A stretch of 64,000 nt of DNA from Dawidia soli. Its GTDB lineage: Bacteria; Bacteroidota; Bacteroidia; Cytophagales; Cyclobacteriaceae. Position 1 is the stretch's first letter. Each line of letters starts with the position of its first letter. Of this stretch, positions 3,001 to 64,000 are shown in pieces. The position numbers and the translations under genes were made by a program. The notes beneath the pieces are model-generated. The model was not told where the DNA came from, ran no database searches, and saw only the letters and a program-made list of their open reading frames with translations. Location: NCBI RefSeq assembly GCF_018598185.1, contig NZ_JAHESC010000012.1, positions 62,001 to 126,000 on the forward strand, written 5' to 3'.

Positions 3001-3259
3001 CACGGATTCTGCACAGGATACCGAACACAAAAAGCTCTACAGCAGCAAACCCTGGTGTGTGCTGATCCCGATGAAAAAACATCAGATCAAGATGAACCAG
3101 GAAGAGCAGAATCTAACCCCCGAAAAGGCAGCGATCATGAATATGCGCCTGGGGCGAGAATTTGTCATTGCCGGTAAAACCGAAAGCCCGCCGCCGGATG
3201 ATGCCTCGGACGATACCACCGGCGCCAGAGGCTATGTGGAGTTTGATATACCCCTATAA
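2..3259 (+). CDS. eCIS baseplate protein, baseplate-J/Afp11-like (5' partial)
   Basis: Likely the wedge protein of a contractile injection system baseplate, the Afp11/gp6-like J protein that joins the spike hub to the sheath. The reading frame is open to the window edge. The first ATG, at 11, has no visible ribosome site, so the true start is probably upstream and at least 1082 residues are seen. The C-terminal third carries the J-like core: a segment around residues 813-840 resembling the family pattern 'RVSE.L.HK.R.VT..D.E.LVLE.FPEV..VKC', followed by alternating beta strands. The N-terminal two thirds are beta-rich and not recognised. The acidic tail (PPPDDASDD) looks disordered. The following genes, a tail fibre and an Afp12-like protein, support the assignment. 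It could instead belong to a type VI-like or tailocin relative; the eCIS reading rests on the context. Confidence 0.72.
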   Translation, partial: QAAMDRVIQSCLQAGIAIDYAALNRPAPAAENDDTPQHSTAADASLDLFLSIAHKVTDSARHLLHAFLYDYQEHDPALALYIAFLKLYGYAQEDLNKITGKHLDYFFYELLQQKPKPSAPDEVYVCVRLSDHVETAAIEKGTLFKANVDEEGLDCLYAAKDYTSLNHAQVVALGSFYPARKGEIGIEPYYEFISAIYETELLTSAGGFDFSTAARAFPAFGEAMYNAAKKTMQPSEIGFAVASPTLLLREGCRQVTVALQFELNSMSPLVSFFERYANAENLSANHVFYRIFSEAFCISLTTPGGWHEVPDYTILPPAWGSGKVEFYFELPLGAPPITPFGENWPTAETTNYNTPWPVMKISLADRKTMYTYSYLQHLVIQTCSISVAVSQIKNLEVYNDLGKVETSVPFYPFGALPVVGSAFLVGYDELTKKQISDIALEITWHNLPRVPGGFREHYETYGEPIDNDSFRVGITGLSDYAFHPAAPDKIQTFPLFVTQQNDGQTIQYKPAAQTTFEHFGVKALKLHDNFTTEPLGPYDNTTKTGYIKVELITPEMGFGHQQYPLLLSEAVLRKARREDTKLPEAPYTPQVKSLALRYQASTQISFQKTSSLKAHPKADEKTYQLQPFGIRTTFAGCTPLVDAWLPQYEHDGYLLLGLDTVIPGEAVTFCFVLERNTLSDPTDEMPTIEWFYVSDDTWHTFNKKDIIFDTTRNFTTTGIVKLVMPADLGNQNTVLPAGAYWIIAALQGDPTATGKIRAIHTQAITLTWTSHKPGAQWKGNLPSNTIDSLALATSDIAGVFQPAPSFGGRAQEAPQDFYVRVSEFLAHKNRGVTAWDIERLVLENFPEVNQVKCISAIEYPFFTEAGKIMVVVTPNVVTGDRFVLPRFSPAALEDIRTYLERRISAFASITVVNPTYEEVKITADIVLTDEATTGEYEDALYRDIRNYICPWYSRPQEDMAFGGSLDLDEITEFMATRPYVKSVSKVSVLILQHNNKRYTITDSAQDTEHKKLYSSKPWCVLIPMKKHQIKMNQEEQNLTPEKAAIMNMRLGREFVIAGKTESPPPDDASDDTTGARGYVEFDIPL

Positions 3260-3320
3260 TTTGTATGGCTGTAATGTGTATACCCGAATTTTTATTGTAA
3301 ATTAATTATACCGGTTCGTT

Positions 3321-4085
3321 ATGTCAGTCAGAAACAGAAATACACTCAAGAATTTCTTCCGCAACGGGAAGTCGCCTTCCGAAACAGAATTCTCGGACCT
3401 GATAGACTCGACCTGGAACAAGGTTGACGACGGATTAAACAAAACGGAAAACGATGGTCTCAAGCTGGCACCCGTTGGAAACTCCCCGGTGCTGATAAGC
3501 TTTTATGAAAGCATTGCGAGCACGACGTCTGCCTGGAGGCTTACGATAAACCACGAGAACAACAAGGGGATCGCCTTTGTTCAACCCGGCCATGAGTCGT
3601 CGCCCGCCCTTACCTTTAGCGGGGCGGGCAATGTGGGAATAAAAACCTTTACGCCGCAGGCTGAGCTTGACGTGCTGGGTACGATCAGCGCCTCCGGACG
3701 CATGGGCGGGTATAAAACGGGACGTGTTCCGGCCGATGCCACCTGGCATACGATCGTGCCGGGTCTTCAGGGTTTTAATGCCTTTGAAATTGTAGCGGTA
3801 GCCGAAGGGAATCCCGGCGAGGGGAACTATAGCATGGCGCACGCCATCGCGCTCAACGCCCACCAGGGCAGCAAGGGTACGATCAAGGTCATCGGCACGT
3901 CGTATGACTGGTTCGACTTTCGCGACAAGCTTCGTTTTCGCTGGCGGGGGACGTCCACAAACTATGCGTTGCAGATCCGCACCGGCAAACACTATGCGCT
4001 GCGCAAGGACAAAAAATTCAATACCATCAGCTTTCACGTCTGCAAGTTGTGGGACAATACCATCATGAAAAACATAAACGACTGA
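3321..4085 (+). CDS. Short tail-fibre-like protein of the injection system
   Basis: Protein of 254 residues lying between two baseplate genes. The N-terminus (about 1-45; NTLKNFFRNGKSPSETEFSDLIDS) has a form often seen at the start of Bacteroidota fibre proteins encoded near contractile systems. Residues about 103-122 contain a version of the tail-fibre motif 'GNVGI...P.AELDV.G', which normally precedes a trimerising shaft and receptor-binding head. The remaining 130 residues are rich in aromatic and glycine residues and probably form a beta-sandwich receptor- or glycan-binding head. No enzymatic motif is visible. The stop is 2 bases before the next gene's ATG, so the two are probably co-translated. 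The inferred role is target recognition (Afp13-like position), although it is far shorter than Afp13. Confidence 0.6.
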   Translation: MSVRNRNTLKNFFRNGKSPSETEFSDLIDSTWNKVDDGLNKTENDGLKLAPVGNSPVLISFYESIASTTSAWRLTINHENNKGIAFVQPGHESSPALTFSGAGNVGIKTFTPQAELDVLGTISASGRMGGYKTGRVPADATWHTIVPGLQGFNAFEIVAVAEGNPGEGNYSMAHAIALNAHQGSKGTIKVIGTSYDWFDFRDKLRFRWRGTSTNYALQIRTGKHYALRKDKKFNTISFHVCKLWDNTIMKNIND

Positions 4086-4087
4086 AC

Positions 4088-6811
4088 ATGGTAGCGTTAC
4101 CCGGCATACACGCCCACTATATACCTCCCAAAAGCATGGATTATGCCTTGCTGCGCAGCGAGGGCCTGGCGCATGTGCAGGCCCTGGCGGGAAAGATCTG
4201 GACGGATTACAATAGCCATGACCCGGGTGTGACAATCCTTGAACAGTTGTGCTATGCGCTGACGGTGGTGGGGTACAAAACCAACCTAGACCTGCACCCC
4301 CTTGTGTTCGGCGGCGGTGAGGCCGAACTCGAAAGAAGTAATGCGCTCTATGGCCCGCAGGAGATCTTTGCCAGCGGCACGGTAACGTTCAACGACCTGC
4401 GGATATTATTATGTGACCTGCTAAAAAACGAGGGGGTGCACAACGTCTGGTTTAAAAAGGCGGGCGGCAGCACGGCCGGGCTCTATGACGTATACGTTCG
4501 CACATCGGCGTCTCCGGACACCCATGCATCGCTCGAAACCAGGATACGCGAGACCTATGCCGCGCACCGCAGCCTGGGGGAAGACATTCGTCGGGTCATC
4601 ATGCTCAAACCGCTGTATATCGACATTGCTGCATCGATCGAGATCAGCGAAGAAGTTTCGCCCGAGAAAGCGTTGGGCGATATGTTCTATGCGCTGCACG
4701 AATATTTTAATCCGTCGGCCACGCGCCTGCCACTGCAGGAGCTGATCCACCAGGGGCTGGGATACGAGAACATTTTCAATACACCCGCGTTCGAGCACGG
4801 CTTTATCCGCAAGCTGCCGCCTCTAAACGACACCACGGTATTTCCGATCTCAGCCCTGGACGACATCATCAGCAACGTACCGGGCATACGAAGCCTGCGC
4901 AACCTGGTCGTCAGCAAGGACGGCATCCGGATCACGGGAAAATATATCACGGTAGAAGAAGGTCATTTGCCGGAAGTGTCGCTGGAGTCGCACAAGATGT
5001 CCATCGCCGTATACCGCAATCATACAAAAATAGGCTTCGACGCGTACCGGGTAAAGCACTATTACCTGGAGAAGATCGAAATTCAAAACAAGTCGTACCC
5101 GTTCACGCCGTTGCCGGCGGGTAAAAAAGATGCGGACGTGAAACGGCACATCGGCACGTACGTGAGCGTTCAGAACACGTTCCCGATCGTGTACGGCATT
5201 GGTCGGTACGGCCTCCCGGGTCATGTGCCCCGTGCGCGTGTCAGCCAGGCACGGCAGCTGCAGCGCTACTTGTTGTTTTTCGACCAGCTCATGATCAACC
5301 ACCTGGCACAGCTCGAGAACCTGGCGCAACTGTTCAGCTATAACCTCGACAGCGCGCAGGCTACGTACTTTACCAAATTGCCCGGCGCCGGCCCCCTGCA
5401 CGACATACCTGACGTCGAAAAGCTGACAGACAGGTCGCTGGACGAAGGCCGGTTGCGAGCGCTGGTGCACGACAATTACTTCGAGCGAAAAAACCGGGTG
5501 CTGGATCACCTGCTTGCGCGGTTTTCAGAGACGTGCCCCGAGCTACAACACCCTAACCTGTCGGCGTTGCTGGGTGTAACCGAACCGGAGCTGAGCGCCA
5601 CCCTGGCGACGATCAAGTCGACCTTATTACAGCAACTACCCGAGCTTAGCAAACACCGGAACCGCGGGCTGAACTACTTCGCGGCCTATCAACCCGATGC
5701 CTACCCGTTCAAGGCACGCCTGAGCCTGCTTTTAAACCTTCGCCACAGTGCGGCCCAGGACAAAGCCATGCCGTCGCTGACGGCACCCTATCATTTTCTG
5801 ACGCCGGCGGACCCGCGGCAGAAGGGCGGCGGCTCGGTGCGGTTTAAATTGCCCCACCACCCGGAGTGCCGTGATCAGCTGGTCTTTTACGGAGCCCTTG
5901 CCGACAGCTACAGCATCGTTCCTGTCGATGCCACGGTCAAGCCGTATATTGTATTGTTCCATACCCGCCAGGTGCCTCAGGGAACGTTGCTGGCGGACTG
6001 TGCTTCGTTCGACGAAGCGGAAGAATTGATTGCTCAGCTGGTGGCCCGGTTTAAAAAGCTGAACGATCAGGCCAGTGATTTTCACGTTCTCGAGCACGTA
6101 CTGTTGCGGCCGACGCTCGACAAACAATACGAGGTCGAGCTGAAGATCCGCCAAACGCCTTACAGCCTTCACGCTACCGAGCGCGATCACCTGGAGGAGC
6201 AGCGAAACCTGGTGGTCGATGTGGTGGTCTACGGTACGGATATAGCGAACTATACGATCCACCAGGAGGGCTCTTCGTATCGGGTTTACCTGACGGACCG
6301 TCATGGCAACGAACTGGTGAAGCTCAACACGTCGTTCGACGAATATGCGCTCGCCGAAACGTGTATCGAGCAAACCCTTGTCCCGTATTTTCTGGAGCTC
6401 GACCGGAAGGGGCTTACGGGTGTGGCCGATGCAAACTTTGTCCTGACGCAGGAAACGACAGCACACGAGGCATTGCTGACGCCGGAGATCACGTTGGTGT
6501 TTCCCAAGTGGATACCCCGGTTCAACGACCCGGAGTTCCGCATCTTGCTGCAGCAAAGCCTCTGCCGGTGCCTGCCGGCACACCTCCGGGTAAACATCCG
6601 GTGGCTGAACCTGAAAGACATGGCCGCGTTCGAACAAAAATTCAGTGCCTGGCTGAAACTGAAGCGCCTCGTTACGGCAGCAGGAAATCCCATCGCCACG
6701 GCACGCAACCGACACGACCTGCGCGAGCTTCGCGGCAGCATGGCGGACCTTGACAAGCTTTCGGCGGAACTGATCTCTGAATTTGTTGTTAGCAAGCCCC
6801 CCGAAACATGA
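4088..6811 (+). CDS. eCIS baseplate protein, Afp12-like
   Basis: Large (907 residue) structural protein, probably the second baseplate wedge subunit, homologous in role to Afp12/PVC12. The clearest signature is near the N-terminus (about 40-60; YNSHDPGVTILEQLCYALT), which matches the conserved 'DPG.T.LE..AYA' region of such proteins. No signal peptide or membrane segment is present, as expected for a cytoplasmically assembled particle. I chose the ATG at 4088 because it follows the fibre stop by 2 bases; an in-frame GTG at 4049 would overlap the fibre gene and add a poor-looking 13-residue extension. The stop overlaps the next ATG in an ATGA junction (6808-6811), implying translational coupling with the ATPase. 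Confidence 0.68.
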   Translation: MVALPGIHAHYIPPKSMDYALLRSEGLAHVQALAGKIWTDYNSHDPGVTILEQLCYALTVVGYKTNLDLHPLVFGGGEAELERSNALYGPQEIFASGTVTFNDLRILLCDLLKNEGVHNVWFKKAGGSTAGLYDVYVRTSASPDTHASLETRIRETYAAHRSLGEDIRRVIMLKPLYIDIAASIEISEEVSPEKALGDMFYALHEYFNPSATRLPLQELIHQGLGYENIFNTPAFEHGFIRKLPPLNDTTVFPISALDDIISNVPGIRSLRNLVVSKDGIRITGKYITVEEGHLPEVSLESHKMSIAVYRNHTKIGFDAYRVKHYYLEKIEIQNKSYPFTPLPAGKKDADVKRHIGTYVSVQNTFPIVYGIGRYGLPGHVPRARVSQARQLQRYLLFFDQLMINHLAQLENLAQLFSYNLDSAQATYFTKLPGAGPLHDIPDVEKLTDRSLDEGRLRALVHDNYFERKNRVLDHLLARFSETCPELQHPNLSALLGVTEPELSATLATIKSTLLQQLPELSKHRNRGLNYFAAYQPDAYPFKARLSLLLNLRHSAAQDKAMPSLTAPYHFLTPADPRQKGGGSVRFKLPHHPECRDQLVFYGALADSYSIVPVDATVKPYIVLFHTRQVPQGTLLADCASFDEAEELIAQLVARFKKLNDQASDFHVLEHVLLRPTLDKQYEVELKIRQTPYSLHATERDHLEEQRNLVVDVVVYGTDIANYTIHQEGSSYRVYLTDRHGNELVKLNTSFDEYALAETCIEQTLVPYFLELDRKGLTGVADANFVLTQETTAHEALLTPEITLVFPKWIPRFNDPEFRILLQQSLCRCLPAHLRVNIRWLNLKDMAAFEQKFSAWLKLKRLVTAAGNPIATARNRHDLRELRGSMADLDKLSAELISEFVVSKPPET

Positions 6812-9093
6812 AACCCGCGTCTAAAAAACATACGCTTGCCGGCCTGAAGCCTTTTGACGAAGCGGACGCCGAGTACTACTATATCGAAGAAACGCTTACG
6901 GAAAAATTCTTCCGGTACCTGAAGAAGAACCGTTTTGTATTGCTGACCGGCGAGCCCGGCTGTGGCAAAACTTCTTTTATTAACTGTGCCGTGCTGACGG
7001 GCAGCCATCTGAATCACACCGAGCGCTGGATTGGTGCCAAGTTCCGGCCGGGACGAAGCCCCATCAAGAACCTGGCGCGTGCACTGGACGTAGCCCAAGC
7101 CACCAATGCCAAACAAAACGCCGCGCTGGCGATCGAAGCACTCCTGCACGCGAGCAGCAGCGCGCTGACGGAAGTATTTGAAGAATATCCGTTGCCGCAG
7201 AACACGAACTTCCTATTGATCGTCGATCATTTCGAAGACATCTTTTTGTCAGACCGCTCACAAACTGCGACGAGCAAGGCCGCGGCCGCCGCGGAGGCAC
7301 AGAAGCTCATCAATCTGCTGTGGGCATTCGAGCACCACAACACGCGGGCAGTCTATGTCGTTGTTTCTTTCTCGGATCACTACCGCGACCGTGCCGCAGA
7401 ACATCCTAAACTACTGGACCTGTTGCAAAAGCGAAGTTTTCCTTTCGAAGGTATATCCGTACAGGAAACCGATGCCGTGATAGACCGTGCCATTCCGGGC
7501 ATCTGGAAAGGCCACCGGGACATCTCCCTGATCAAAAAAGCGACCCGACAGCGGCTGGATGAAGACCAGGAGCGTCATACCCTCACCCCTGCCTGGCGTT
7601 ACCTGCTGAACCATTCCCTGCAGTATACCTTTGCGTTGTGGCTGCGCGCGTACCAATCCATCCATAAGAAAATAGCAGGCGACCCCTCGTTGAAAGAGGT
7701 CGCAGATCACAAATACCTGCCCTTGCTGGTCAATGATCTGCTGCGCGATGAACTTTCGGTCGTCAATGCTACCGCCAGCAAAAGAGGTAACACCCTTTGG
7801 CTTACGTTGTCCATGCAACAACAGCAAGCCCTTACCCGCGTGGTGAAGACCGCCCGGGAAACCGACAAAAAGCTAACGCTGCAAGGATACCACCAGGTGG
7901 CCGGTAAGCTCATGCGGTCGTTAGCGCTGGAGGTCGAAGAGATCTTCCACGCAAACGCCAACATGGAAACGGTATGTGAGCTGTTTGTCAAAACCCTCAC
8001 CTCGCGTGATGGCACCCTGGAGCCGCTTCGCTATAAAACGATGATCACGTGCCTGGTCGGCAAAAAAGGGATCACCCGCCAGGACGTGAACCGCTTCATC
8101 ACTTGCTTTGGCGACGACGGGCTGGGGCTGGTGCAGGTCATACCCTCTTCGCGTATCGAGGAGAGCCTGAACATGATCCACAACGGGGCGCATATCGATG
8201 ACGACGCCGTGGTATCGATCCGAAACATGAGCCTCGCGGGGGCGTTTCCCAAGGTGGTACTCTGGATCAAGCAGGAAAGTGATTGCATCCAGGAATACCT
8301 CCTTTACGCGCAGGCGGCCGCCGGCAAAACAGCGTCCCATCCGTTGACGCTGGAGCGGTATGCCAATACGATCCTGAGCGGCGAACCCGTCGACAGCTGC
8401 GAATACTCGAAGGTCATTGACAGCTTTCTGCAAAAAGACAGCACGTGGGCAGCGCTCCATACGCCCCCCGGCAGCGGCTTTGCCAGCTTTGACCGAACAC
8501 GGAAGTTTGTTGAGCAGGGCGTAAACCACTGGCGGGATATCAACAAAGCCGAGAAGACGCGTCAGCAGGAAGAAAAGAAGATCAAACGCATCAAGCGCAA
8601 TCTGTTTGTCTCGGCGTTCGTGGGCGTTGCTTTGGTGGCGCTTTACACCTCATTTTCGATCGCCCAGCATAGAATGCTCAAACAATTCGACTGCCTGTAC
8701 GACGACTGCCTGCGTGTAAGCAAAGAGATCAATCTTCAATACATTGATAAGGGCGAGGACTATAAAGTACTGGTGGACGGGTGGACGACCGCTTTGGTCG
8801 AGAAAAGCAACCTGGTGGACAACTGCATCGATTCAATGTATTCGTCCAACGTCGTAAACTTTATCTGGCGCTACCGGCACTGGCAACGGAGACGGGACGC
8901 ATTGTTCGTTGATTCCACACGGATGAATGTATTAAATGACGTGATCGACAAGAATTTTTTATATAAAGCCGGAAGCACCATAGAGATCGTAGAAGGTTAT
9001 AAGATCTTTAATGAAAAGCTTTTGCCTCAAAACGTACCGTATCTCGTGGATTGCAGGAAGTGCGATGAGCCAGGATGGTTTGGTTTTAAATAA
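6808..9093 (+). CDS. STAND-like P-loop ATPase with C-terminal membrane segment, coupled to the eCIS cluster
   Basis: Protein of 761 residues. It has a Walker A motif GEPGCGKT at about 48-55 and a Walker B-like LLIVDHFED at about 136-144. Next come 'VYVVVSFSDHYRD' and a helical region with a spacing that resembles nSTAND-type NTPases rather than classical AAA+ hexamers. A lysine/arginine-rich stretch (about 580-597) leads into one hydrophobic segment (about 597-620), placing roughly 140 C-terminal residues on the other side of the membrane. There is no signal peptide. It is translationally coupled to the Afp12-like gene, and its position matches that of the Afp15 ATPase in the Afp cluster, but the architecture differs. 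A role as a membrane-bound assembly, docking or trigger factor is inference; it could also be a defence-type sensor. Confidence 0.6.
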   Translation: MKPASKKHTLAGLKPFDEADAEYYYIEETLTEKFFRYLKKNRFVLLTGEPGCGKTSFINCAVLTGSHLNHTERWIGAKFRPGRSPIKNLARALDVAQATNAKQNAALAIEALLHASSSALTEVFEEYPLPQNTNFLLIVDHFEDIFLSDRSQTATSKAAAAAEAQKLINLLWAFEHHNTRAVYVVVSFSDHYRDRAAEHPKLLDLLQKRSFPFEGISVQETDAVIDRAIPGIWKGHRDISLIKKATRQRLDEDQERHTLTPAWRYLLNHSLQYTFALWLRAYQSIHKKIAGDPSLKEVADHKYLPLLVNDLLRDELSVVNATASKRGNTLWLTLSMQQQQALTRVVKTARETDKKLTLQGYHQVAGKLMRSLALEVEEIFHANANMETVCELFVKTLTSRDGTLEPLRYKTMITCLVGKKGITRQDVNRFITCFGDDGLGLVQVIPSSRIEESLNMIHNGAHIDDDAVVSIRNMSLAGAFPKVVLWIKQESDCIQEYLLYAQAAAGKTASHPLTLERYANTILSGEPVDSCEYSKVIDSFLQKDSTWAALHTPPGSGFASFDRTRKFVEQGVNHWRDINKAEKTRQQEEKKIKRIKRNLFVSAFVGVALVALYTSFSIAQHRMLKQFDCLYDDCLRVSKEINLQYIDKGEDYKVLVDGWTTALVEKSNLVDNCIDSMYSSNVVNFIWRYRHWQRRRDALFVDSTRMNVLNDVIDKNFLYKAGSTIEIVEGYKIFNEKLLPQNVPYLVDCRKCDEPGWFGFK

Positions 9094-53597: not shown

Positions 53598-55541
53598 TTA
53601 CTTCAATTCGTAGGCGATCTCCATGATCTTCACCACCTCGCCCGAGCGGTTCTTGATCGGCGAGAAAGTCGAACGGATATTGATCAGCTCACCTTTCCGG
53701 TTCTGGCGTTTGAAGGCGCCCTTCTTGGGATAGCCGTTGGCCAGATCTCTCCAGAACTGACGGTAGTCTTCGCCGTTCTTCTCTTCTTTGGATGCCAGGA
53801 TGCGGTGATGCTCGCCGAGCACTTCGTCCTGCGTGTATCCAAAGAGCTCCAGGAAGTTGCTGTTCACTTTTACGATCGTACCATCGGGGTTGTAGTCTGC
53901 TACGGCCAGCGAACCGTGGATGGCGTTGAGCGTGCTTTCGGTCTCGCCCTGGCTGCGCTGCATTTCTTCCTGGGTGGCTTGCAGCTCTTCCATATTCTGG
54001 CGCATTTCTTCCTCCTGCGCGCGCATCTGTTCGGTCATCTCCTGCGACTCTTCCAGCAGGCGCTGGGTGCGGGCGTTGATCTTCACGGACGAGATGGTCG
54101 ACGCAATGCTCTCGGCGATCTTCTGTACAAATTCGATCTCGAAGTCGCGGAACTCTGTAAATGAAGCGATCTCCACGACACCAAAGATCTGGTCGTTCAC
54201 CTTCAGCGGTACGATGACCACGGCGGTGGGATTGGCATCCCCCAAACCAGACACGATGCGTACGTAGTTCTGCGGCACTTCCGTGAGGTATACGGTGTCG
54301 CCTTCCTGCCAGGCCTGACCGGCCAGGCCTTCGCCGCGGTGAATCTTATGGTTGAGATATTTCTTTTTATCCCAGGCATAACATGCCTTCATGGACATGG
54401 TCGGCTCTTCGTCTGCTGCGGTGTCGTCCACAATATAGAGGGCGCCCTGGTTGGCTTTGAGGTATTTTACCAGGTTGCCGATAATCTCGTCGGCCAGTTT
54501 GTTCAGGTCGCTGTTGTTGGTACGAAGGATCTCGCCGAATTTGGCCTGACCTTCTGTTGCCCAGTTACGCTTCTTATCATCTTCGGCCACCTTCGAGAGG
54601 TTGTCGCGCATGTTGATCAGGGCGTTACCCAGTACGTCGTGCTCGCTGAGCGGCTGGAACTCCGTCTGATAGTTGCCGTTACCGATGTTTTCGGCAAAGA
54701 GGCTGGTGGATTTCAAGCCGGTAACAAGGTTGTCCATGGCCACGGCCATTTCGCCGATCTCGTCGTTGCTGACATTGGCTTGTTTATCTTCTACGAGCTC
54801 ACCACGGCCGAGCTTCACGACCACGTTCTTGAGGAAGTTCACCGGGCGGGTAATGGCGCGCATCAGGAAGATGGCGCTCAGCAGGCCGATCACGATGATG
54901 CCGGCGCCGAGAATAAGTGTATAGTTACGCAGGCTCTTGATCGAGCTGATCACATCCTGGTCGGATTGATCGGTCACCTTGCTTTGCTGGGCGTCGATAT
55001 GGTTCAGGCGACGGATCAGATCGGAAGTACGCGGAATGATCTGGCTTTCGATCACGTCTTCGGCCAGGAGCTTGGTGATGGGGTCTTCGTAGTTCTCAAA
55101 CGACTGGAGGGGAGCCATGATGGACTCCTTCTGAATGTTGATGAGTGTATCGAACTTGAGGAATACGGTATCCATGGCGCGGCGTTGCTCTTCCGACTCC
55201 CACTTGGGCATGAGCTTGGTGAGCTTGTCGTAGAGGGCCGGGTAGTCGGTCTTCTGAAGTGCCTTGAGGGCTTCTTTATCTTCCTGGTTGGTTTGCAGGT
55301 ACACCCAGTTGGTGACGAGCATTTTGGACCGCGTCACCAGGAGGACAAAGTCCTGAATGGCCTCTTGTGACGGACGGTAGTTTTCGCTGGAGCTGTTAAC
55401 AACGCTGTCGATCCCGTTACCCTTCCAAAAAATGATGGCGCCATTGACAATGAACAGCGCGATCAGAATGATGAAACCACCGAGTATCTTGTTGCCGATG
55501 GTTAATCGAAGACGCAACTTCTTCTGTTCTTTTTCTTCCAT
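53598..55541 (-). CDS. Membrane sensor: TM - periplasmic helical domain - TM - HAMP - GAF - coiled coil - PAS, no output domain
   Basis: Protein of 647 residues. TM1 lies at about 20-39 and TM2 at about 207-229. Between them is a helical extracytoplasmic domain of about 165 residues like four-helix-bundle chemoreceptor sensors. A HAMP (about 230-285) and a GAF domain (about 325-470; 'GALYIVDD', 'GEGLAGQAWQEGDTVYLTEVP', 'ASFTEFRDFEIEFVQKIAESIASTI') follow. Next comes a Glu/Gln/Met-rich coiled coil (about 485-530) and a C-terminal PAS domain. It ends after the PAS with no histidine kinase, GGDEF, phosphatase or methyl-accepting domain, and a proper terminator follows. It lies 8 bases downstream of yfiR, so it probably passes a periplasmic signal through partner proteins. 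Confidence 0.82.
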   Translation of the reverse strand: MEEKEQKKLRLRLTIGNKILGGFIILIALFIVNGAIIFWKGNGIDSVVNSSSENYRPSQEAIQDFVLLVTRSKMLVTNWVYLQTNQEDKEALKALQKTDYPALYDKLTKLMPKWESEEQRRAMDTVFLKFDTLINIQKESIMAPLQSFENYEDPITKLLAEDVIESQIIPRTSDLIRRLNHIDAQQSKVTDQSDQDVISSIKSLRNYTLILGAGIIVIGLLSAIFLMRAITRPVNFLKNVVVKLGRGELVEDKQANVSNDEIGEMAVAMDNLVTGLKSTSLFAENIGNGNYQTEFQPLSEHDVLGNALINMRDNLSKVAEDDKKRNWATEGQAKFGEILRTNNSDLNKLADEIIGNLVKYLKANQGALYIVDDTAADEEPTMSMKACYAWDKKKYLNHKIHRGEGLAGQAWQEGDTVYLTEVPQNYVRIVSGLGDANPTAVVIVPLKVNDQIFGVVEIASFTEFRDFEIEFVQKIAESIASTISSVKINARTQRLLEESQEMTEQMRAQEEEMRQNMEELQATQEEMQRSQGETESTLNAIHGSLAVADYNPDGTIVKVNSNFLELFGYTQDEVLGEHHRILASKEEKNGEDYRQFWRDLANGYPKKGAFKRQNRKGELINIRSTFSPIKNRSGEVVKIMEIAYELK

Positions 55542-55549
55542 AGGTTAGT

Positions 55550-56053
55550 TTAGATCATGATGCCCAGCCGGGTCAGCTCATTGCTGACCTTTAAGTTTTG
55601 CCTGTTTACCGCCGCCTGGTTTAGTTCGAAAGCCAATTTACCATCTTTGACGATAAAGTTTATATCGCTGCCTTTGACGCCAAGTCCAGGCTCTTCGGTC
55701 ACGATCAGGATGGACTGGCTGGCGACCTTGGCGAGTACGTTGTCAATCAGTGCCGACTTGTTCGAAGGCACGTAGAGGATATTGCACCGGCGGATCTCGC
55801 CCGGGCTATTGATCCTGGTCACCTTGATGGTGCGATCACCTCCTACCTTTTTCGCGGCCGCCATGTTCTTCAGCTCGTCGTAGATCGGCGAGTCGCCCAA
55901 CACCAGGATCTCGAAGTCACCCTGGTTATAAGCATCCGGCCATTGCACGTAGCGTGTGAAGCTGTAAATGAAAACGGATTGGAACTTGTGTGTTTGGGTG
56001 AATCCTGGCAGAAAGGCAAAAAAGAAGAGTAGAGTGGATAGAGTCTTTCTCAT
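55550..56053 (-). CDS. YfiR-family (DUF4154) periplasmic protein
   Basis: Protein of 168 residues with a signal peptide (to about 20, GFTQT) and the family pattern 'KFQSVFIYSFTRYVQWPD', 'FEILVLGDSPIYDEL', 'CNILYVPSNKSAL', 'GKLAFELNQAAVNRQNLKVSNELTRLG'. In Pseudomonas YfiR binds the periplasmic domain of the diguanylate cyclase YfiN and restrains it. Here the partner encoded 8 bases downstream is instead a HAMP-GAF-PAS sensor without a cyclase domain, so this YfiR may gate that sensor. I start at 56053 (MRKTLS); the longer frame to 56107 adds no useful signal sequence. Confidence 0.88.
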   Translation of the reverse strand: MRKTLSTLLFFFAFLPGFTQTHKFQSVFIYSFTRYVQWPDAYNQGDFEILVLGDSPIYDELKNMAAAKKVGGDRTIKVTRINSPGEIRRCNILYVPSNKSALIDNVLAKVASQSILIVTEEPGLGVKGSDINFIVKDGKLAFELNQAAVNRQNLKVSNELTRLGIMI

Positions 56054-56562
56054 GCTTTGGTAAGTATACTGCTTCTTTGATACGCTTGCAAAAATATGCC
56101 CGTTCATAATCTAAAATGTTTAAAATTTCGCCGATTTCTAACGTCTGAGGGTATTGCGAGAACTTGGTCGATTTCTATGACTGTGCAATTCCCGGCGTTT
56201 CTCGTGAGGCGCGCAGACCGTCTGCCTTTGGTGTAAAGCAAAGCGGATGCCATCCGGGCCACCCGCCGCTGCTTTCTGTTAGCATTTGGTATGTTGCCCG
56301 CAGGTATCGATTAAAGTTACTAAATCGCCCGGACGTGGAAAATCCCTTTTGTTACGCGTTTTAACACGATGGCTTTTGTAAAAATTGTCAATAAACGTAC
56401 AGAAGGTACGTAGTGCTGAAGCTACGATGGGCCCGCCTTCGCTAAAGCTATGGCGGGCAGGCAGGCCACCGTGGTAAACGCTATGGACGAGATGTGAGTG
56501 GTGTATCGGGTGGTAGAATCTGCGGGATAATCGTTAGCTTCGCGCAAAATTTTTTATCAGTC
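56054..56562. other. Divergent gap between yfiR and lhgO
   Basis: About 509 bases with no supported gene. It includes REP-like palindromes at 56409-56458 and must contain both promoters. Nothing else was recognised. Confidence 0.5.
56409..56458. repeat. Pair of REP-like palindromes upstream of lhgO
   Basis: CGTAG-N8-CTACG (56409-56426) is followed directly by GCCCGCC-N14-GGCGGGC (56431-56437 with 56452-56458), with an inner GCT/AGC pair, then GGCAGG. The form resembles dispersed intergenic palindromes in Bacteroidota; only one copy is in this window. Confidence 0.5.
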
Positions 56563-57836: not shown

Positions 57837-58841
57837 CTAAAACTGATCGGGCCATACCTCCCACGCCAGGCTGTCGCGCAATACGCGCAGCTCGTCCTTG
57901 GCGGTGTTGGAGATGGGTGCAATGAAGGTAGCGCCATACGGCTGCTGGCTGAGGTACATCTGACCGCCGGTACGGTTCTCGGCTAGTGATGCCGTGTATA
58001 CCTGGTGAATGACGTTGTTCAGGCTGGACGCGGAGAAGCCCGAGTCGAGGAACAGGCGCACGCTGAGCAGGTCGTTGTCGGCCGGCACCGTGATGTAGCG
58101 CGTTCTGCTGGCACCGAGCTCGATGGTCTGCAACAGCGTGTTGTTGGAGAAGTCGATGTACGTGGGCGATTGTGCAAACGCGTTGGCAAAGCTCTGGAGG
58201 TTGCCGACATGATCGAGCGCAATGTCGGAGATGCCGCCGTAGTCATAGAAGAATCCGAGTGTTTCCACCTTGTCCAACTCGCCGGTAATGCTTACAAAGT
58301 AATAGCCGGGTGTATCATAGAGGTGTGTCAAATAACATCCACATGTCGTCGCTTCAATGGGGGAACCGTCACCCCAATCGATGGAGAGGGCGGCATCGGA
58401 GGCCCCGAGGTCTAGCTGCACTTCCTGCTGACCGCCTGTTACAAAGGTAAGCGCCGGTACCAGGTCAATGTCAGCCAATCGCCCACCTTGTTCCTTTCGC
58501 AGCGAGCGCATGGTGAAGGTCCTGACGACCTTCTGAAAAGCGTCTGCTTTCACGACCAGCGAATAGACCTTGTCCTGATCGCCGTTGAATGCGATGCGAT
58601 CCTTCAGTTTTTTCAGCAATTGACTGTAAACGGTGTCTTTTCCGTCGAGGACATATACTTTGGCAACCACTTCCGATGAAGCGGCCGGCCGCTTTCCATA
58701 GACAGCCGGGGCATTCAGCTGAATGGAAATACCTTCGGCGTCCGCCGCCGTCTTTACGCTTTCGTCTTCCTTACAGCCCGACAATGCAAGCGCTATTGCC
58801 GTCGCCGCGATGATACCATTCGTCCAGTTGATTTTCTTCAT
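57837..58841 (-). CDS. DWGDG-motif lipoprotein, array member 1 (shortest)
   Basis: Lipoprotein of 334 residues (lipobox LALSGC, Cys23), not matching a named family. It shares with the three following genes a 'D.KDTVYSQLL..' regulatory-like module, the DWGDG motif in 'ALSIDWGDGSP' (PKD-like turn) and a segment with leucine/isoleucine periodicity ('LDHVGNLQSFANAFAQSPTYIDFSNNTLLQTIELG'). The C-terminal tail 'ELRVLRDSLAWEVWPDQF' is also shared. It lacks the ~120-residue N-terminal module present in the other members, so it is a truncated or ancestral form. It is probably surface-exposed, perhaps an adhesin or ligand-binding protein; the function is unknown. Confidence 0.8.
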   Translation of the reverse strand: MKKINWTNGIIAATAIALALSGCKEDESVKTAADAEGISIQLNAPAVYGKRPAASSEVVAKVYVLDGKDTVYSQLLKKLKDRIAFNGDQDKVYSLVVKADAFQKVVRTFTMRSLRKEQGGRLADIDLVPALTFVTGGQQEVQLDLGASDAALSIDWGDGSPIEATTCGCYLTHLYDTPGYYFVSITGELDKVETLGFFYDYGGISDIALDHVGNLQSFANAFAQSPTYIDFSNNTLLQTIELGASRTRYITVPADNDLLSVRLFLDSGFSASSLNNVIHQVYTASLAENRTGGQMYLSQQPYGATFIAPISNTAKDELRVLRDSLAWEVWPDQF

Positions 58842-59023
58842 ACGCTTGTTTTTAAGTAATGTTTATATGCTGATGGGTGTGGGGATGTCCAACGTGCGGG
58901 GTGTACACCTGTCCCATAAAAAAAAGGGCCTGACATTCCGCACCTTCCGGTCTGATCTGTCGCCGTTACTTCTGCTCCACACGGCGTGGAGCAGAAGCTT
59001 TGCTACGGCGGCTCTATGTGTCG

Positions 59024-60454
59024 TTACTCGTCGATCGATGTCGGCCAGATCTCCCAGCCATAGGTGTCGCGCAAGGCGCGCAGCTCCTGGAAGGATTGCG
59101 GCGAAGGCCATGCGATAAAGCCCCAGGTGCTATACGGCGTGTCGCTGAGGTACAGCCAGCCACCGTGCGCACCGGTCGTTACGGCATTTACGTACGCCGC
59201 GTGGATGACCTCGTCCATCGAAGCGGGTGAGAAGCCCACCTGGGCCACAAGGTCTACGGCAAACAACGGCGGCGCTTCCGGCAACACGAACGAGCGAACA
59301 TCGCTATAGGCCATATGAATGGATGCGATGTGCGGGTTATGGCTGAAGTCGATCACCTGCGGCGAGTCGGCAAAGGACAACGCGAATAGCTGAAGCGCGG
59401 GCAGATAGTCGAGTGTGAGCGAACGCAGGGCGCCGTCGTCGTAATAATACTCGACGCCGGACACACTGCTCAGGTCGCTGCCGTAGACGCTGACAAAGAA
59501 CTGGCCTTCGCGTCCGTACGCGTGCGTTAACCGGTTTGTGATATCGCGGATGTCGGCTACCGGCACCACGTTGCCATCACCCCAGTCGATAAACAGGTTG
59601 TCGGCCGGCCCCTGCAGGCGGAAGGCGAAGTCGTTGCCCCAGCGGGTTACGAACGTAAACGCCTGCTCGAGTGTGACGGTCAGCGGACCGCCCGACAGGC
59701 TCGGGATCAGTTCCTGTAGTACAAAGGGCACCACCTGTTTGCGATAGCCCGGCTGTACCAACACCAGTTCATAGGGCCGCTCCTGGTTGCCCACAAAGGC
59801 GATGTCGTTCGTACCGGCCGGCAACTGCTGGCTGTAGATCGTATCGGTGCCGTCAACAATATAGGCGTGGACCGACGCGAGCACCAGCGTCTCCCCTTCC
59901 GGCTTAAACACCGACAGTTTGAAATACGGGAAGGGCGCCACCGTAATGTTGAAGCTGGCGTAGCCGAAGTCCTCCGGGGTATATCCGTCGGCAACGGGCA
60001 ACACCTCTACGCCCAGCTCGGTAACGTCTTCGTCATATACCGTGAAGGGTACCGGCAACGGGTCGTCTACCCACTGTGCGAGCGACGAGCCTTGTTTCGG
60101 GGTGGCGTACGACACCTGGCTGTCGGCTACGATAAACTCCGTGAGCGTGTAGTTACCCGGTGCCAGTGACAGCGGCTGACTGACGACGCTCTCACCCAAC
60201 GTGATGAGTGTGACCTCCTTCAGGTCAAACACCACGTCACCGGCAGCGTTTACGACGGTGACATACAACTTCGCGCCCGAAGGCAAGGCGGACGCCTTTC
60301 TTCCGGTGGTACTACCGTCTTTCCCCGGCTGGGGCCGGATCGCAAAACGAACGTCGCCGGGCCGGGCCGGACTTTTCTCATCATCCTGACACGATGGAAA
60401 GAGCATCGCGCATGCAAGCATGCTCAAGCAAAAGAACCAACTGACTTTTTTCAT
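59024..60454 (-). CDS. DWGDG-motif lipoprotein, array member 2
   Basis: Lipoprotein of 476 residues (lipobox LFPSC, Cys22). Module A (about 30-160) begins 'PARPGDVRFAIRP' and has 'LPSGAKLYVTVVNAAGDVV', 'LSLAPGNYTLTEFIVADSQVSYATPKQGS' and 'LAQWVDDPLPVPF'. Module B has 'DGTDTIYSQQLPAGTNDIAFVGNQERPYELVLVQPGYRK'. Module C carries DWGDG, then leucine-periodic repeats ('LRSLTLDYLPALQLFALSFADSPQVIDFSHNPHIASIHM'). The tail is 'ELRALRDTYGWEIWP'. Each module recurs in members 3 and 4, marking tandem gene duplication. Probably surface-anchored; no catalytic motif is visible. Confidence 0.82.
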   Translation of the reverse strand: MKKVSWFFCLSMLACAMLFPSCQDDEKSPARPGDVRFAIRPQPGKDGSTTGRKASALPSGAKLYVTVVNAAGDVVFDLKEVTLITLGESVVSQPLSLAPGNYTLTEFIVADSQVSYATPKQGSSLAQWVDDPLPVPFTVYDEDVTELGVEVLPVADGYTPEDFGYASFNITVAPFPYFKLSVFKPEGETLVLASVHAYIVDGTDTIYSQQLPAGTNDIAFVGNQERPYELVLVQPGYRKQVVPFVLQELIPSLSGGPLTVTLEQAFTFVTRWGNDFAFRLQGPADNLFIDWGDGNVVPVADIRDITNRLTHAYGREGQFFVSVYGSDLSSVSGVEYYYDDGALRSLTLDYLPALQLFALSFADSPQVIDFSHNPHIASIHMAYSDVRSFVLPEAPPLFAVDLVAQVGFSPASMDEVIHAAYVNAVTTGAHGGWLYLSDTPYSTWGFIAWPSPQSFQELRALRDTYGWEIWPTSIDE

Positions 60455-60502
60455 ACGATTTAGGGGTTGAATGTTAAGGGTTATGCGGTATTACCGTGAT
60501 CG

Positions 60503-61936
60503 CTAAAATTCATCCGGGGAGATACTCCATCCGTAGACATCACGCAGCGCGCGAAGTTTCTCCAGCGCATCGGACGAAGGTGTTACGATCAAACGGCGTG
60601 GGACCGTATACATCGTCTCGAGGGCCAACGTGCCTACGGGCATGCGGCCCTCTACCGCCGCCCGGTAGGACACATCGATAATATGGTCGAGAGAGCTTTG
60701 CTGGAACGTGTCGTTGTTCCCCATCAGAAGGATATAGCGCACGGTCGCATCTTCTGCCAGCACGATCGAACGGGCATTGGCGATGATCATCTCGATCTCG
60801 TGCAATACGGGATTATGGGAAAAATCTACGACGGGAGGCGCTGCGGCAAATCCCTGTCTGAATCTCCTCAGCGCCGGCAGGTTGTCGAGGGTAATTTCCT
60901 TCAGTGATCCGAAATCATAGAAGAATCCCAGCTCCTCAATGTGGTTCAGGTCGTTTCCATACACGCTGACGAAATAATGATCTTTGTCGCCCGTGTATTC
61001 GTGCTCGACCTGATCGGCTATTACCGGAACGAGCGGCTCGATGGTGCCGTCACCCCAATCTACCGTCAGCTCGTCCAGCGAGCTTCCCACCACGCTGAAC
61101 GCCGCACCACGATTATAACGCGTCACAAATGTAAACGCCGGCCGAAGGGCTATCTCCAGGGCCTTCTTGCCCGAGCTTATCAGCGTTTCCAACAACGTCG
61201 GAAGCGTAAAGTCCACGGTATACCGGGCATATCCGGGCTGCTCCAATACCAGCTGATAGATCGCTTCCATATCTCCCACGAATGCGATCGCGTTTATACC
61301 CGCCGGCAGCGCCTGGCTAAAGACCGTGTCGGCCCCTTGAAGTATTGACGCACGTACGGGTATAAACGCCAACCCGTTTTCGTTCAGCGTGAATACCGAG
61401 AGATTAAAATAGGGATATGCTGCTACTTGTATCCCGAAACCTACATATCCGAAGTCCTGCGGTGCGTTGGTCTCGTCAAACGGCAACACCTGCACCTGGA
61501 GTCCGGCAATGGTATTGTCCTCGACGGTGAATGCGATCGGTAGCGGGTCCTCCACCCACTGTGCCAGCGGCGACCCTTCCTGCGGCGCGACATATGACAC
61601 CTGGTCGCCGGCCACGATGAACCTGGTTAAAATATAGTCTCCCGTATTGAGTGCTAACGGCTCGCTTACAGCATAGCCGCCCATGTTGACCAGTGTTACC
61701 TCCCGCAGCGAATAGACTTCTTCGCCGGCTGTAGTTGCAATAGAGACGTACAGCTTCGCCCCTTCAGGAAGGCTTTGTGTGACCCGACCGTCGGGGGCAT
61801 CGGCCGAAACCCGGTGCTGCAGCGTAAACCGGACAGTGCCCGGCCTGGCGGGGTTATTATCATCTTCCTGGCAAGACGACAGGAACGCCGCGTATGTCAG
61901 CAGGGTAAGGCAAAAGACCTTATGTATTATTTTCAT
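60503..61936 (-). CDS. DWGDG-motif lipoprotein, array member 3
   Basis: Lipoprotein of 477 residues (lipobox FLSSC, Cys22) with the same module order A-B-C and tail ('KLRALRDVYGWSISPDEF') as member 2. Distinct features are the DWGDG sequence 'ELTVDWGDGTIEP' and the segment 'LGFFYDFGSLKEITLDNLPALRRFRQGFAAAPPVVDFSHNPVLHEIEM', closest to member 1 in that region. I start at 61936 (MKIIHK); an ATG at 62008 would put a 24-residue polar extension before the signal peptide. It ends 48 bases before member 2 begins, so the pair may share a transcript. Confidence 0.82.
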   Translation of the reverse strand: MKIIHKVFCLTLLTYAAFLSSCQEDDNNPARPGTVRFTLQHRVSADAPDGRVTQSLPEGAKLYVSIATTAGEEVYSLREVTLVNMGGYAVSEPLALNTGDYILTRFIVAGDQVSYVAPQEGSPLAQWVEDPLPIAFTVEDNTIAGLQVQVLPFDETNAPQDFGYVGFGIQVAAYPYFNLSVFTLNENGLAFIPVRASILQGADTVFSQALPAGINAIAFVGDMEAIYQLVLEQPGYARYTVDFTLPTLLETLISSGKKALEIALRPAFTFVTRYNRGAAFSVVGSSLDELTVDWGDGTIEPLVPVIADQVEHEYTGDKDHYFVSVYGNDLNHIEELGFFYDFGSLKEITLDNLPALRRFRQGFAAAPPVVDFSHNPVLHEIEMIIANARSIVLAEDATVRYILLMGNNDTFQQSSLDHIIDVSYRAAVEGRMPVGTLALETMYTVPRRLIVTPSSDALEKLRALRDVYGWSISPDEF

Positions 61937-62607
61937 AGTCTGATCATGTTTATGTTTTGACGGATCGTAATAAGGCTGATGAAGTGTGTTAAAGCTGTCT
62001 TTTTTCATAACGTCGTTAAAAGGATAATTTTAGAAAATATAGAACACGCACGCACGTACCTCGCGCGCGCCGAAAAATGGCGAGTATAAAGGCATACAGC
62101 AGCCATCACAGCACATGGAGTGTGCTGCTTGCCTTGACATGGCTACCGATACATCTGTCTACTGACGCTGTGGAAAAATTTCGGGTAAGACAGGATCCTC
62201 TTCCGAAGAGCGGAAGACCCGGGCGGGTGAAACAAGATCAAGATGCCAACTATAGCTTTTCATATCGTAGGGATTTAAGTATCCATCGTTTGTAGTACGG
62301 CCACGCCTGAGGGAAGAGATACGCCACGGTATACCTATACACTGCCTGTTCCTCTTTTGAGGAAGCGTTTCTACAACCAGTCTATATGCGAGGAGCTCCC
62401 GGGAAGTTTGTTCAACGTTCTTTACACTTCAATACTTTCTTGCGGTACTTCAGCGAGAGCATGTAAATGTATCACTAATTGCCATCAATTGTTAACCTGA
62501 ATAAAGAAAAAATATTGGGGAAATATAATGGAAAGGCTCCGCCCCCATGCGTGTGGGGGCAGAGCCTTTCATTCCGTACGTACATTCCGTACGTTGTAAA
62601 TGCTATG
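61937..62607. other. Gap between array members 3 and 4 (671 bases)
   Basis: No supported gene. It contains an alternating purine-pyrimidine tract (62044-62059) and CGCGCGCGC (62062-62070), a TCTTCCG/CGGAAGA hairpin (62199-62217) and the member 4 terminator (62531-62570). Plus-strand frames here look non-coding. Confidence 0.5.
62531..62570 (-). terminator. Terminator of array member 4
   Basis: Long stem GAAAGGCTC-C-GCCCCC / GGGGGC-A-GAGCCTTTC (62531-62546 with 62555-62570, one mismatch); the minus-strand exit is A/T-rich. Confidence 0.85.
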
Positions 62608-63999
62608 TCAGAAATCGTACGGCCAGACCAGCCATCCGTGCAGGTCCCGCAGCTCGCGCAGCATCGCCAGTGACTCTTCGGTGACGGGTCCCACGAATTC
62701 CCCCGCGCCTTCGGGCATCGTACTGAGGTATAGAAAGCCCTCGTATCCATAGGTCATTTGTCCACGGTAGGCGGCTTGGATGGCAGCGTTCAACGATGCT
62801 TCTGACGTTCCCGCGTTGCCGACCAGGTCTACAAGACTCAGGCGCGCGTCTTCCGGCAGATCGAACGAGCGGATGTCACTATGAGGAAATGAGATCAGGC
62901 TGATCCGGGGATTGTGTCTGAAATCCACATATACCGGCGATCGTGTCTCGGCTGCCGCGAAGATCAGAAGATTGGGCAGGTTCACGAGTGAAATTTCCGT
63001 CGTAGGCCCATTCCCGTACGATTCCAATGCCGAGATACTCTCCAGGTCGCCGTAGATACTGACGAAGTGCAGCAGATGATCATCGGTGTAGTAATGCACA
63101 AAGGATCCGAATATGCTGGAGGTCATCGGCTCCACGACACCGTCACCCCAGTCGATCGTCAGGTCCTCCCCATTGCCCGTCAACCGGAACGTATAGAAAT
63201 ACGTACCGTAGGCGGTGAACGTCAATGCCGGCGTGAGTGTCACCGAAAGGGGCGCGCCATCCAGCGCTTCCAGCAGCTCGCCCAGCACAAATGTCTGGGT
63301 ATGCTGGCGGTACGAGGGCTGCGTCAGCGACAAGGTATACGTCCGCGAAGGATCACCGACAAAGGCTATCGCGTTCGTGCCGGCGGGGAGCGTTTGTTTG
63401 TAGACCGTATCGGCACCGTCGAGTATGCTGGCGCGCACCGGCGAGAACACCGGGGTGTGGCTGCTATCGTAGGCAAACACCGAGAGCCGGAAGTACGGAA
63501 AGGGCGCGACGTTGACGCGAAAGGTAACATAACCAAATTCATCGGCGCTGTGTTCACCGGTGGCGAGCACCTGTACATCCTGTCCCGTCACGGCGTCCGC
63601 CGTGACGGAGAAAGATGCCGGCAGTGGGTCTGCTACCCAGGCAGCCAAGGGCGAGCCTTCTTTGGGCGTGGCGTAGAGCGTCGTACCGACAGCATCTGTT
63701 ACCAGGAAATCTGTGAGCGTGTAGGTACCGGGTGGCAGCGGTAAAGGCTCGCTGACATAGTCCTCGCCGAGGGTAAGCAACGCGATCTGCTTCATTGTAT
63801 ATACTTCGTGACCACCCGCATCCGCGATCGTTACGTACACGGACGCACCGGCCGGCAGGACGGCTCCCACCCGGCCGTGGCTTGCTTCTCCGACCGCGCG
63901 GGCATCGATGGTAAAACGTACATTTCCCGGCACGGCCGGGCCTTGTGCTTCATCATGACATCCCGAAACGAGGACCGTCAGAACGGACAGCATGACGAA
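62608..63999 (-). CDS. DWGDG-motif lipoprotein, array member 4 (5' end outside window)
   Basis: At least 463 residues. The frame is open to the window edge, and the first visible ATG (63993) falls inside the signal peptide (MLSVLTVLVSGC), so the real start is probably a few codons beyond the window. Modules match members 2 and 3: 'GPAVPGNVRFTI', 'LPPGTYTLTDFLVTD', 'YATPKEGSPLAAWVADPLPASF', 'DGADTVYKQTLPAGTNAIAFVGDPS' and 'LTIDWGDGVVEP'. The leucine-periodic part has 'VDFRHNPRISLISFPHSDIRSFDLP', and the tail is 'MLRELRDLHGWLVWPYDF'. It has its own terminator and a 671-base downstream gap, so it is transcribed apart from member 3. Confidence 0.8.
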   Translation of the reverse strand, partial: FVMLSVLTVLVSGCHDEAQGPAVPGNVRFTIDARAVGEASHGRVGAVLPAGASVYVTIADAGGHEVYTMKQIALLTLGEDYVSEPLPLPPGTYTLTDFLVTDAVGTTLYATPKEGSPLAAWVADPLPASFSVTADAVTGQDVQVLATGEHSADEFGYVTFRVNVAPFPYFRLSVFAYDSSHTPVFSPVRASILDGADTVYKQTLPAGTNAIAFVGDPSRTYTLSLTQPSYRQHTQTFVLGELLEALDGAPLSVTLTPALTFTAYGTYFYTFRLTGNGEDLTIDWGDGVVEPMTSSIFGSFVHYYTDDHLLHFVSIYGDLESISALESYGNGPTTEISLVNLPNLLIFAAAETRSPVYVDFRHNPRISLISFPHSDIRSFDLPEDARLSLVDLVGNAGTSEASLNAAIQAAYRGQMTYGYEGFLYLSTMPEGAGEFVGPVTEESLAMLRELRDLHGWLVWPYDF

Positions 64000-64000
64000 T

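Follow-up and report, generated by a model that had tools for sequence, protein, structure and literature searches.

At the end of a 64,000-nucleotide stretch of the Dawidia soli genome (contig NZ_JAHESC010000012.1, positions 62,001 to 126,000; hereafter the window, G000:C26:62001-126000 of a 7.48 Mb genome, whose numbering is used for all coordinates) lie four genes of a tandem array encoding homologous lipoproteins. A full-length member combines a lipoprotein signal, a stalk of two predicted beta-sandwich domains and a head composed of a PKD-like domain and a short leucine-rich repeat (LRR) region. We consider it probable that these proteins are surface-exposed outer-membrane lipoproteins acting as adhesins or ligand-capture proteins. 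Adhesion or ligand capture is favoured because an export-signal lipoprotein, a stalk and an LRR head come together in them, and because relatives of the stalk carry heads of binding type. Known domain types make up these proteins; as far as our searches of open-licence papers reach, the family and its array are undescribed, and we found no description there of PKD and LRR lipoproteins of this kind from Bacteroidetes or Cytophagales.

Four minus-strand open reading frames (ORFs; 57837-58841, 59024-60454, 60503-62008 and 62608-63999) encode homologous, non-identical lipoproteins, each with a lipobox cysteine, the DWGDG motif, repeats and a common tail, just as an earlier note on this sequence had described. 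Comparison of member 2 with members 3, 4 and 1 gave E values of 2.3e-123, 4.9e-117 and 1.2e-48, far beyond chance. The earlier note was also right in that member 1 lacks the N-terminal module, since this protein matches only positions 1-38 and 179-467 of the family profile, the second, "regulatory-like" module being retained. Its suggestion that the array continues past the window edge was borne out as well: the array extends to about C26 131,847, with four more full-length members upstream, and totals eight members, namely A1 without the first module and A2-A8 in full length. The ORF listed for member 3 stands as a lipoprotein gene but not with its start, for it opens at 62008 and the distance to the lipobox makes codon 25 (61936) the likely initiation site. 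The likely start of member 4 falls 23 bases outside the window, and this protein groups with member 5, which lies outside the window. The features are as follows.

57837..58841, minus strand: array member 1 (A1), lipoprotein with stalk domain 2 and a PKD and LRR head, without domain 1
59024..60454, minus strand: array member 2 (A2), full-length lipoprotein; structure model with a pLDDT of 80.8
about 60388-59981 (domain 1), 59980-59669 (domain 2), 59668-59450 (PKD) and 59449-59039 (LRR and cap), minus strand: parts of A2, borders placed by eye
59027..59671, minus strand: head of member 2, a PKD-like domain followed by a short Internalin-J-type LRR and a C-terminal cap
60503..61936, minus strand: array member 3 (A3), full-length lipoprotein
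62608..64000, minus strand: array member 4 (A4), full-length lipoprotein, cut by the window edge

Identity to member 2 is only 35-46% within the window, so the window copies are not assembly duplicates, and the identical copies that the earlier note had named as a sign of assembly error were not found. An assembly artefact is ruled out by the identities of 35-49% to member 2 across the array copies, together with the presence of an array with orthologues in a second assembled genome, that of Parachryseolinea silvisoli. Five dispersed relatives are found on other contigs of the D. soli genome. One of them (L018:1202-2275, contig C59) has the N-terminal module only, followed by a tail that is YD-repeat-like by eye and has no Pfam match at E <= 0.01; this sequence was left out of the later alignments.

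Domain anatomy and surface signal

The four window proteins score below the cut-off of every Pfam and NCBIfam model, and the same is true, for Pfam, of the eight further LRR-type members that the genome encodes. A profile built from these 12 genome members matched Internalin-J over its LRRs (E 4.4e-15) and the PKD-type domain of 4xed (E 0.0093), while a head-only profile matched Internalin-J at 5.3e-16, the 4xed domain at 0.0017 and Internalin B (InlB) at 0.009. By this match, the head repeats correspond to the LRR pattern L..LD.S.N..L, with repeats of about 21 residues. Judged by these profiles, the "[ILV]DF..N" repeats are Internalin-J-type LRRs and DWGDG is the mark of a PKD-like domain. 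In single-sequence searches only A8 matched Pfam LRR_4 (20.2 bits against a cut-off of 27), and none of the 12 LRR-type members of the genome reached the PKD cut-offs (PKD 18.9 bits at best, against 23.5; PKD_4 18.5 at best, against 27). The WGDG motif and beta-sandwich of PKD domains are present nonetheless, W, G and D being invariant in 12 heads and the strands appearing in the model. The WGD core, the LRR frame and the cap residues are invariant in 12 aligned heads, four from the window and eight from P. silvisoli.

Modelling of member 2 by AlphaFold2 with 11 aligned relatives gave a mean predicted local distance difference test (pLDDT) score of 80.8, with the head mostly at or above 90 and the first domain at 44-85 by ten-residue blocks; the head modelled alone reached a pLDDT of 92.8 and a predicted template-modelling score (pTM) of 0.89. 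The head model folds as an LRR solenoid, and in it the "LR.LRD..[GA]W...P" tail that the earlier note had singled out is the end of the LRR head. Structural alignment of the head with VIA-align placed it with InlB (Z 9.2, root-mean-square deviation (rmsd) 3.5 A, 148 residues), and the remaining top-50 rows are almost only LRR proteins. The second stalk domain models as a transthyretin/CarboxypepD-reg-like fold, aligning with the transthyretin-like domain of carboxypeptidase D (Z 7.9, rmsd 2.5 A, 75 residues) and with transthyretin (Z 7.2, rmsd 2.7 A, 80 residues), both with Z below 8; the modelled fold fits the "regulatory-like module" of the earlier note. The CarboxypepD_reg model has no sequence match in any member, though it does match the TonB receptors of the same window, and PEGA scores weakly in one relative. 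Of the assignments, that of the first domain as weakly DUF4458-like is the least secure: DUF4458 (PF14660) scored at best 20.2 bits against a cut-off of 22.4 in relative L075, with weak matches in four of 20 relatives, and was absent at E <= 0.1 from the 12 genome members.

Among known structures, the best match in the PDB of a profile of 20 stalk relatives is BT_0210, an LRR protein of Bacteroides thetaiotaomicron (4ecn, E 0.006 for the whole sequence; 0.15 for the N-terminal stretch alone), which we take to carry a DUF4458 domain. Structurally it ranks second, aligning with model residues 31-472 at Z 8.1 over 250 residues, with an rmsd of 16.6 A over several domains. The similarity is weak, and the BT_0210 chain is larger (876 residues), whereas here a short LRR follows the PKD-like domain, and heads other than LRRs occur on the same stalk. 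Domain 1 aligns over residues 31-154 with BF2867 of Bacteroides fragilis (4h40), a putative cell adhesion protein which is presumably fimbrillin-like (Z 6.8, rmsd 3.7 A, 110 residues), a likeness that at Z below 8 may reflect a common arrangement only; 4h40 is not among the sequence-profile matches.

The head resembles the listerial Internalins J and B (3bz5, 2uzx) in the repeat match and InlB alignment given above. Listerial internalins are Gram-positive proteins with longer LRRs, another N-cap and another anchor; unlike them, the present proteins are Bacteroidota lipoproteins whose stalk bears a PKD-like domain and then a short LRR. With PKD proteins (PF00801/PF18911; 4xed) they share the WGDG motif and the following H.Y, but miss the Pfam cut-off. 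The whole model returned only two Foldseek matches at E <= 0.001, the streptococcal ancillary pilin 4oq1 (6.3e-5) and the archaeal S-layer protein 8qox_B (8.5e-4); with TM-scores of 0.15-0.19, these were taken as shared beta-sandwich stalks and not as kinship.

The earlier note had supposed a surface-protein array, and the residues that follow the lipobox agree with this. The lipobox cysteine occupies the aligned place in all 44 sequences of the alignment, and at least two acidic residues occur at positions +2 to +6 in 41 of them; +3 is acidic in 33 and +4 in 40, compared with 12.5% acidic residues in the rest of the same proteins. Position +2 is polar or basic in 34 of the 44 rows. In Capnocytophaga, two acidic residues after a polar or basic one suffice for delivery of lipoproteins to the surface, and related export signals occur in Bacteroides and Flavobacterium, according to PMC5080379. 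The same order, one polar or basic residue and then two acidic ones or more directly after the cysteine, is seen in the family; the motif was defined in other genera (PMC5080379). By this analogy we infer that the members are surface-exposed.

Turnover and divergence between two arrays

On contig NZ_JAIOAO010000007.1 of P. silvisoli, we found a syntenic array of eight genes (S1-S8) with a different set of members. Trees were built separately for stalk (38 rows, without C39, A1, S1 and S4) and head (44 rows), rows covering less than 60% of the region having been dropped. The pairs A2-S2, A3-S3, A6-S6 and A7-S5 are recovered in both trees with high support. The A1-S1 pairing was examined in the head tree only, and A8-S7 is paired in the head tree only (support 0.64), the stalk tree placing A8 with A6-S6 (support 0.11). 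For S8 there is no counterpart, S4 is shortened, and the A6-type and A7-type genes follow each other in opposite order in the two species. Ahead of S4, the intergenic sequence still encodes the C-terminal 21 residues of an A4-like protein (identity 67%, tblastn E 9.8e-7) and, by eye, a second tail-like stretch, DWKIWPLEF; both are, to judge from their sequence, relics of deletion. The two genes that flank the array in both species lie about 1.2 kb apart in genome G001, where they enclose two unidentified ORFs in place of an array; they are about 70 kb apart in G002 and G006, and on different contigs in G003 and G005.

Divergence is unevenly spread along the proteins. In five full-length orthologue pairs (A2, A3, A6, A7 and A8), domain 1 is 69-87% identical and the PKD and LRR parts 49-79%, so that domain 1 is the most or nearly the most conserved part. 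Domain 1 and head differ clearly in A2 and A8 (86% against 49-66%), moderately in A3 and A7, and slightly in A6 (69% against 62-63%). Domain 2 gives no uniform picture, with 77-87% in A2, A6 and A7, 56% in A3-S3 and 65% in A8-S7. A general rule of conserved stalk and variable head is therefore only partly true, since domain 2 of the latter two pairs is as divergent as the heads or nearly so. A1 is the exception: with 82-94% in all its parts, it has changed least of the array members between the two species. The dispersed pair C78-S_C7b has low identity in every part (62, 47, 41 and 43%).

Pairwise ratios of nonsynonymous to synonymous substitution (dN/dS), calculated for head and stalk of eight family pairs, range from 0.04 to 0.35 (two domain values were not computable), and A1 has 0.14 against its orthologue. 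Five flanking genes give 0.02-0.08, and the family therefore evolves faster than its neighbours, yet under constraint. Positive selection is unsupported, no pair having a dN/dS above 1 in these pairwise values. Of the word "diversifying" in the earlier note, the turnover of genes and the faster divergence of the head relative to the first stalk domain remain, and positive selection falls away. Whole-gene synonymous distances of the five array pairs (1.19-2.06) are near saturation, against 0.45-0.90 for the flanking genes and 0.56 for A1; these high values hint at old paralogy with loss, or at imported alleles. Four pairs occur in both the stalk and the head tree, and recent wholesale swapping of heads within the array is therefore not seen among those four. 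Domain 1 of A6 is closer to that of A8 (77%) than to that of its orthologue S6 (69%), with synonymous distances giving no clear indication of conversion.

Paralogues in tandem, members gained and lost from one species to the other, and heads that have diverged more than the first stalk domain would also fit a self/non-self or defence array. Its products would serve as surface receptors, decoys or immunity lipoproteins directed at contact toxins, phages or neighbours, as a repertoire with turnover from strain to strain. We regard this as unlikely. The scanned flanking ORFs, which were the larger ones, contain no toxin or phage gene, the substitution ratios stay low, and member 1 changes little between species. 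Moreover, 50,697 phage and 72,556 plasmid records contained no relative of member 2 at E <= 1e-5, an absence on which phage or plasmid cargo was likewise rejected.

Relatives of the stalk and possible functions

A survey of 295 genomes from 84 genera of the family, in which about five candidates were scored per genome, allowed us to place the array among its relatives. Parachryseolinea is assigned by NCBI to Fulvivirgaceae, Cytophagales; we take its GTDB family to be Cyclobacteriaceae. The whole profile matched at E <= 0.001 in 143 of the 295 genomes and 44 of the 84 genera, the match being near full length, by eye, in at least 19 genomes from seven genera. Many other matches span only the first 260-280 positions, that is, the stalk. 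Among 11 such stalk-only relatives, five carry Laminin_G_3, two CBM96 and two FG-GAP, all above the Pfam cut-off, and a known head is absent from two. LamG, CBM96 and FG-GAP heads are of carbohydrate- or protein-binding type. Within the genus, the arrangements found are domains 1 and 2 with head, domain 2 with head (A1 and its orthologue), domain 1 with head, and signal peptide with head. The head profile matched at E <= 1e-6 in 13 of 395 genomes drawn across the phylum; two of these, both of the same family, matched over nearly the whole head, and the others only in the PKD or the LRR part, mostly within large open frames.

These assignments supply domain identities for a family that the curated libraries leave unnamed and link it to a stalk that bears several kinds of head within the taxonomic family. 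The statement of the earlier note that the family has no name holds insofar as none of the four proteins reaches a library cut-off, and matches to well-described families, which it had listed as grounds for refutation, exist for the individual domains, while the complete family has none.

We propose that the acylated cysteine would anchor the proteins in the outer membrane and that the acidic residues following it, a signal of the kind tested in other Bacteroidetes, would route them to the cell surface. The two beta-sandwich domains, the first DUF4458- or fimbrillin-like and the second transthyretin/CarboxypepD-reg-like, would form a stalk holding out the head, in which the PKD-like domain is fused to a short Internalin-J-type LRR with a predicted alpha/beta C-terminal cap, the LRR being the likely binding face. 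The array would have grown via tandem duplication and lost members through deletion, with heads drifting faster than the first stalk domain. In this way a single cell could present several related binding heads as a small repertoire.

The CBM96 and Laminin_G_3 heads found on the same stalk elsewhere in the family could speak for nutrient capture, in which surface glycans or peptides would be bound for uptake or digestion, as by the surface glycan-binding lipoproteins of Sus-like systems. Such a role seems improbable for this array: LRR heads typically bind proteins, neither a SusC/SusD pair nor a hydrolase occurs among the flanking ORFs scanned, and the TonB-dependent receptors with a CarboxypepD-reg domain that are present in the window lie more than 20 kb away.

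Several observations weigh against the adhesin or ligand-capture reading itself. The absence of SusC/SusD-like and hydrolase genes from the flanking ORFs scanned is one of them, and the absence of any dN/dS value near 1 is another. The acidic enrichment was measured against the rest of the same proteins rather than against periplasm-facing lipoproteins. Foldseek alone gave no match for the head at E <= 0.001, the alignment tool itself rates Z values of 8-9 as modest, and the LRR is short, its three to four repeats (by eye) offering a small binding surface. Lastly, the genus relative G002 is without any member, and the function is therefore dispensable.

Dispensability, together with family dN/dS values mostly above those of the five flanking genes and no sign of positive selection, would also suit a structural component of a surface coat or matrix without specific ligand, the copies differing through relaxed drift only. 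We think this very unlikely, as the invariant residues of the 12 heads argue for a maintained function. A wider proposal, which we put forward as a quite unlikely one, is that in this Cytophagales family the two-domain stalk is a platform with exchanged heads (PKD-LRR, LamG, CBM96, FG-GAP) and that the PKD-LRR set of the genus is a turning-over receptor repertoire for neighbours, prey or phage; if true, it would be loosely comparable to LRR-based recognition sets elsewhere. The two syntenic eight-gene arrays, with their orthologues, gains and apparent deletion relic, are a natural comparison for deciding between adhesin, nutrient-catcher and recognition-receptor roles of the surface LRR sets of Bacteroidota.

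Intergenic regions and neighbourhood

The gaps between members measure 17-182 nt, except for 599 nt after member 4 (671 nt to the likely start of member 3). Two features were recorded there.

62531..62570, minus strand: strong intrinsic-terminator-like hairpin just after member 4, 17 pairs of which 11 are GC
62009..62607, minus strand: gap between the genes of members 4 and 3, of which about 590 nt share 79% identity with the corresponding region of P. silvisoli

The hairpin is a pattern match only, 14 terminator-like sites having been found against 11.2 expected in shuffled sequence. In the gap between A7 and A6, a hairpin is followed by six T a few bases on (by eye), and for this reason we do not read the array as two transcripts. 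The conserved gap between members 4 and 3 is a possible leader or promoter region, and a structured RNA search gave no Rfam match at E <= 1. Within it, a possible 34-residue ORF (62159-62263, minus strand) has a 66%-identical match over 29 residues at the same place in P. silvisoli, and its best match elsewhere, in 37 other genomes, has an E value of 0.14. Its first 39 bases differ from those of P. silvisoli at a single place, and what is conserved may therefore be the DNA rather than the peptide. The Bacteroidota-type promoter pattern is -33/-7; its full form was not found in either array, a result of little informative value as only 0.2-0.3 sites were expected by chance. A phase-variable array was also considered and rejected: 16 of the 18 inverted-repeat pairs are only 75-87% complementary, none resembles an invertible promoter by eye, and the cleanest is the hairpin after A4.

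The flanking ORFs scanned encode a major facilitator superfamily transporter, a flavin adenine dinucleotide-dependent oxidoreductase, a ThiF-rhodanese protein, a sodium:solute symporter, a DUF5777 barrel, a YfiR-like protein and a GAF/PAS sensor, and include one ORF of 398 residues without match. The YfiR/HmsC-like (DUF4154) protein lies directly upstream of the GAF and PAS sensor-like protein (53598-56107, minus strand), and the sensor is conserved in P. silvisoli. Finally, positions 11-9093 carry a gene for a Baseplate_J-like protein of 1082 residues, with an nSTAND1 NTPase-domain protein further downstream; a cluster of contractile injection or phage-tail-like type may end here.

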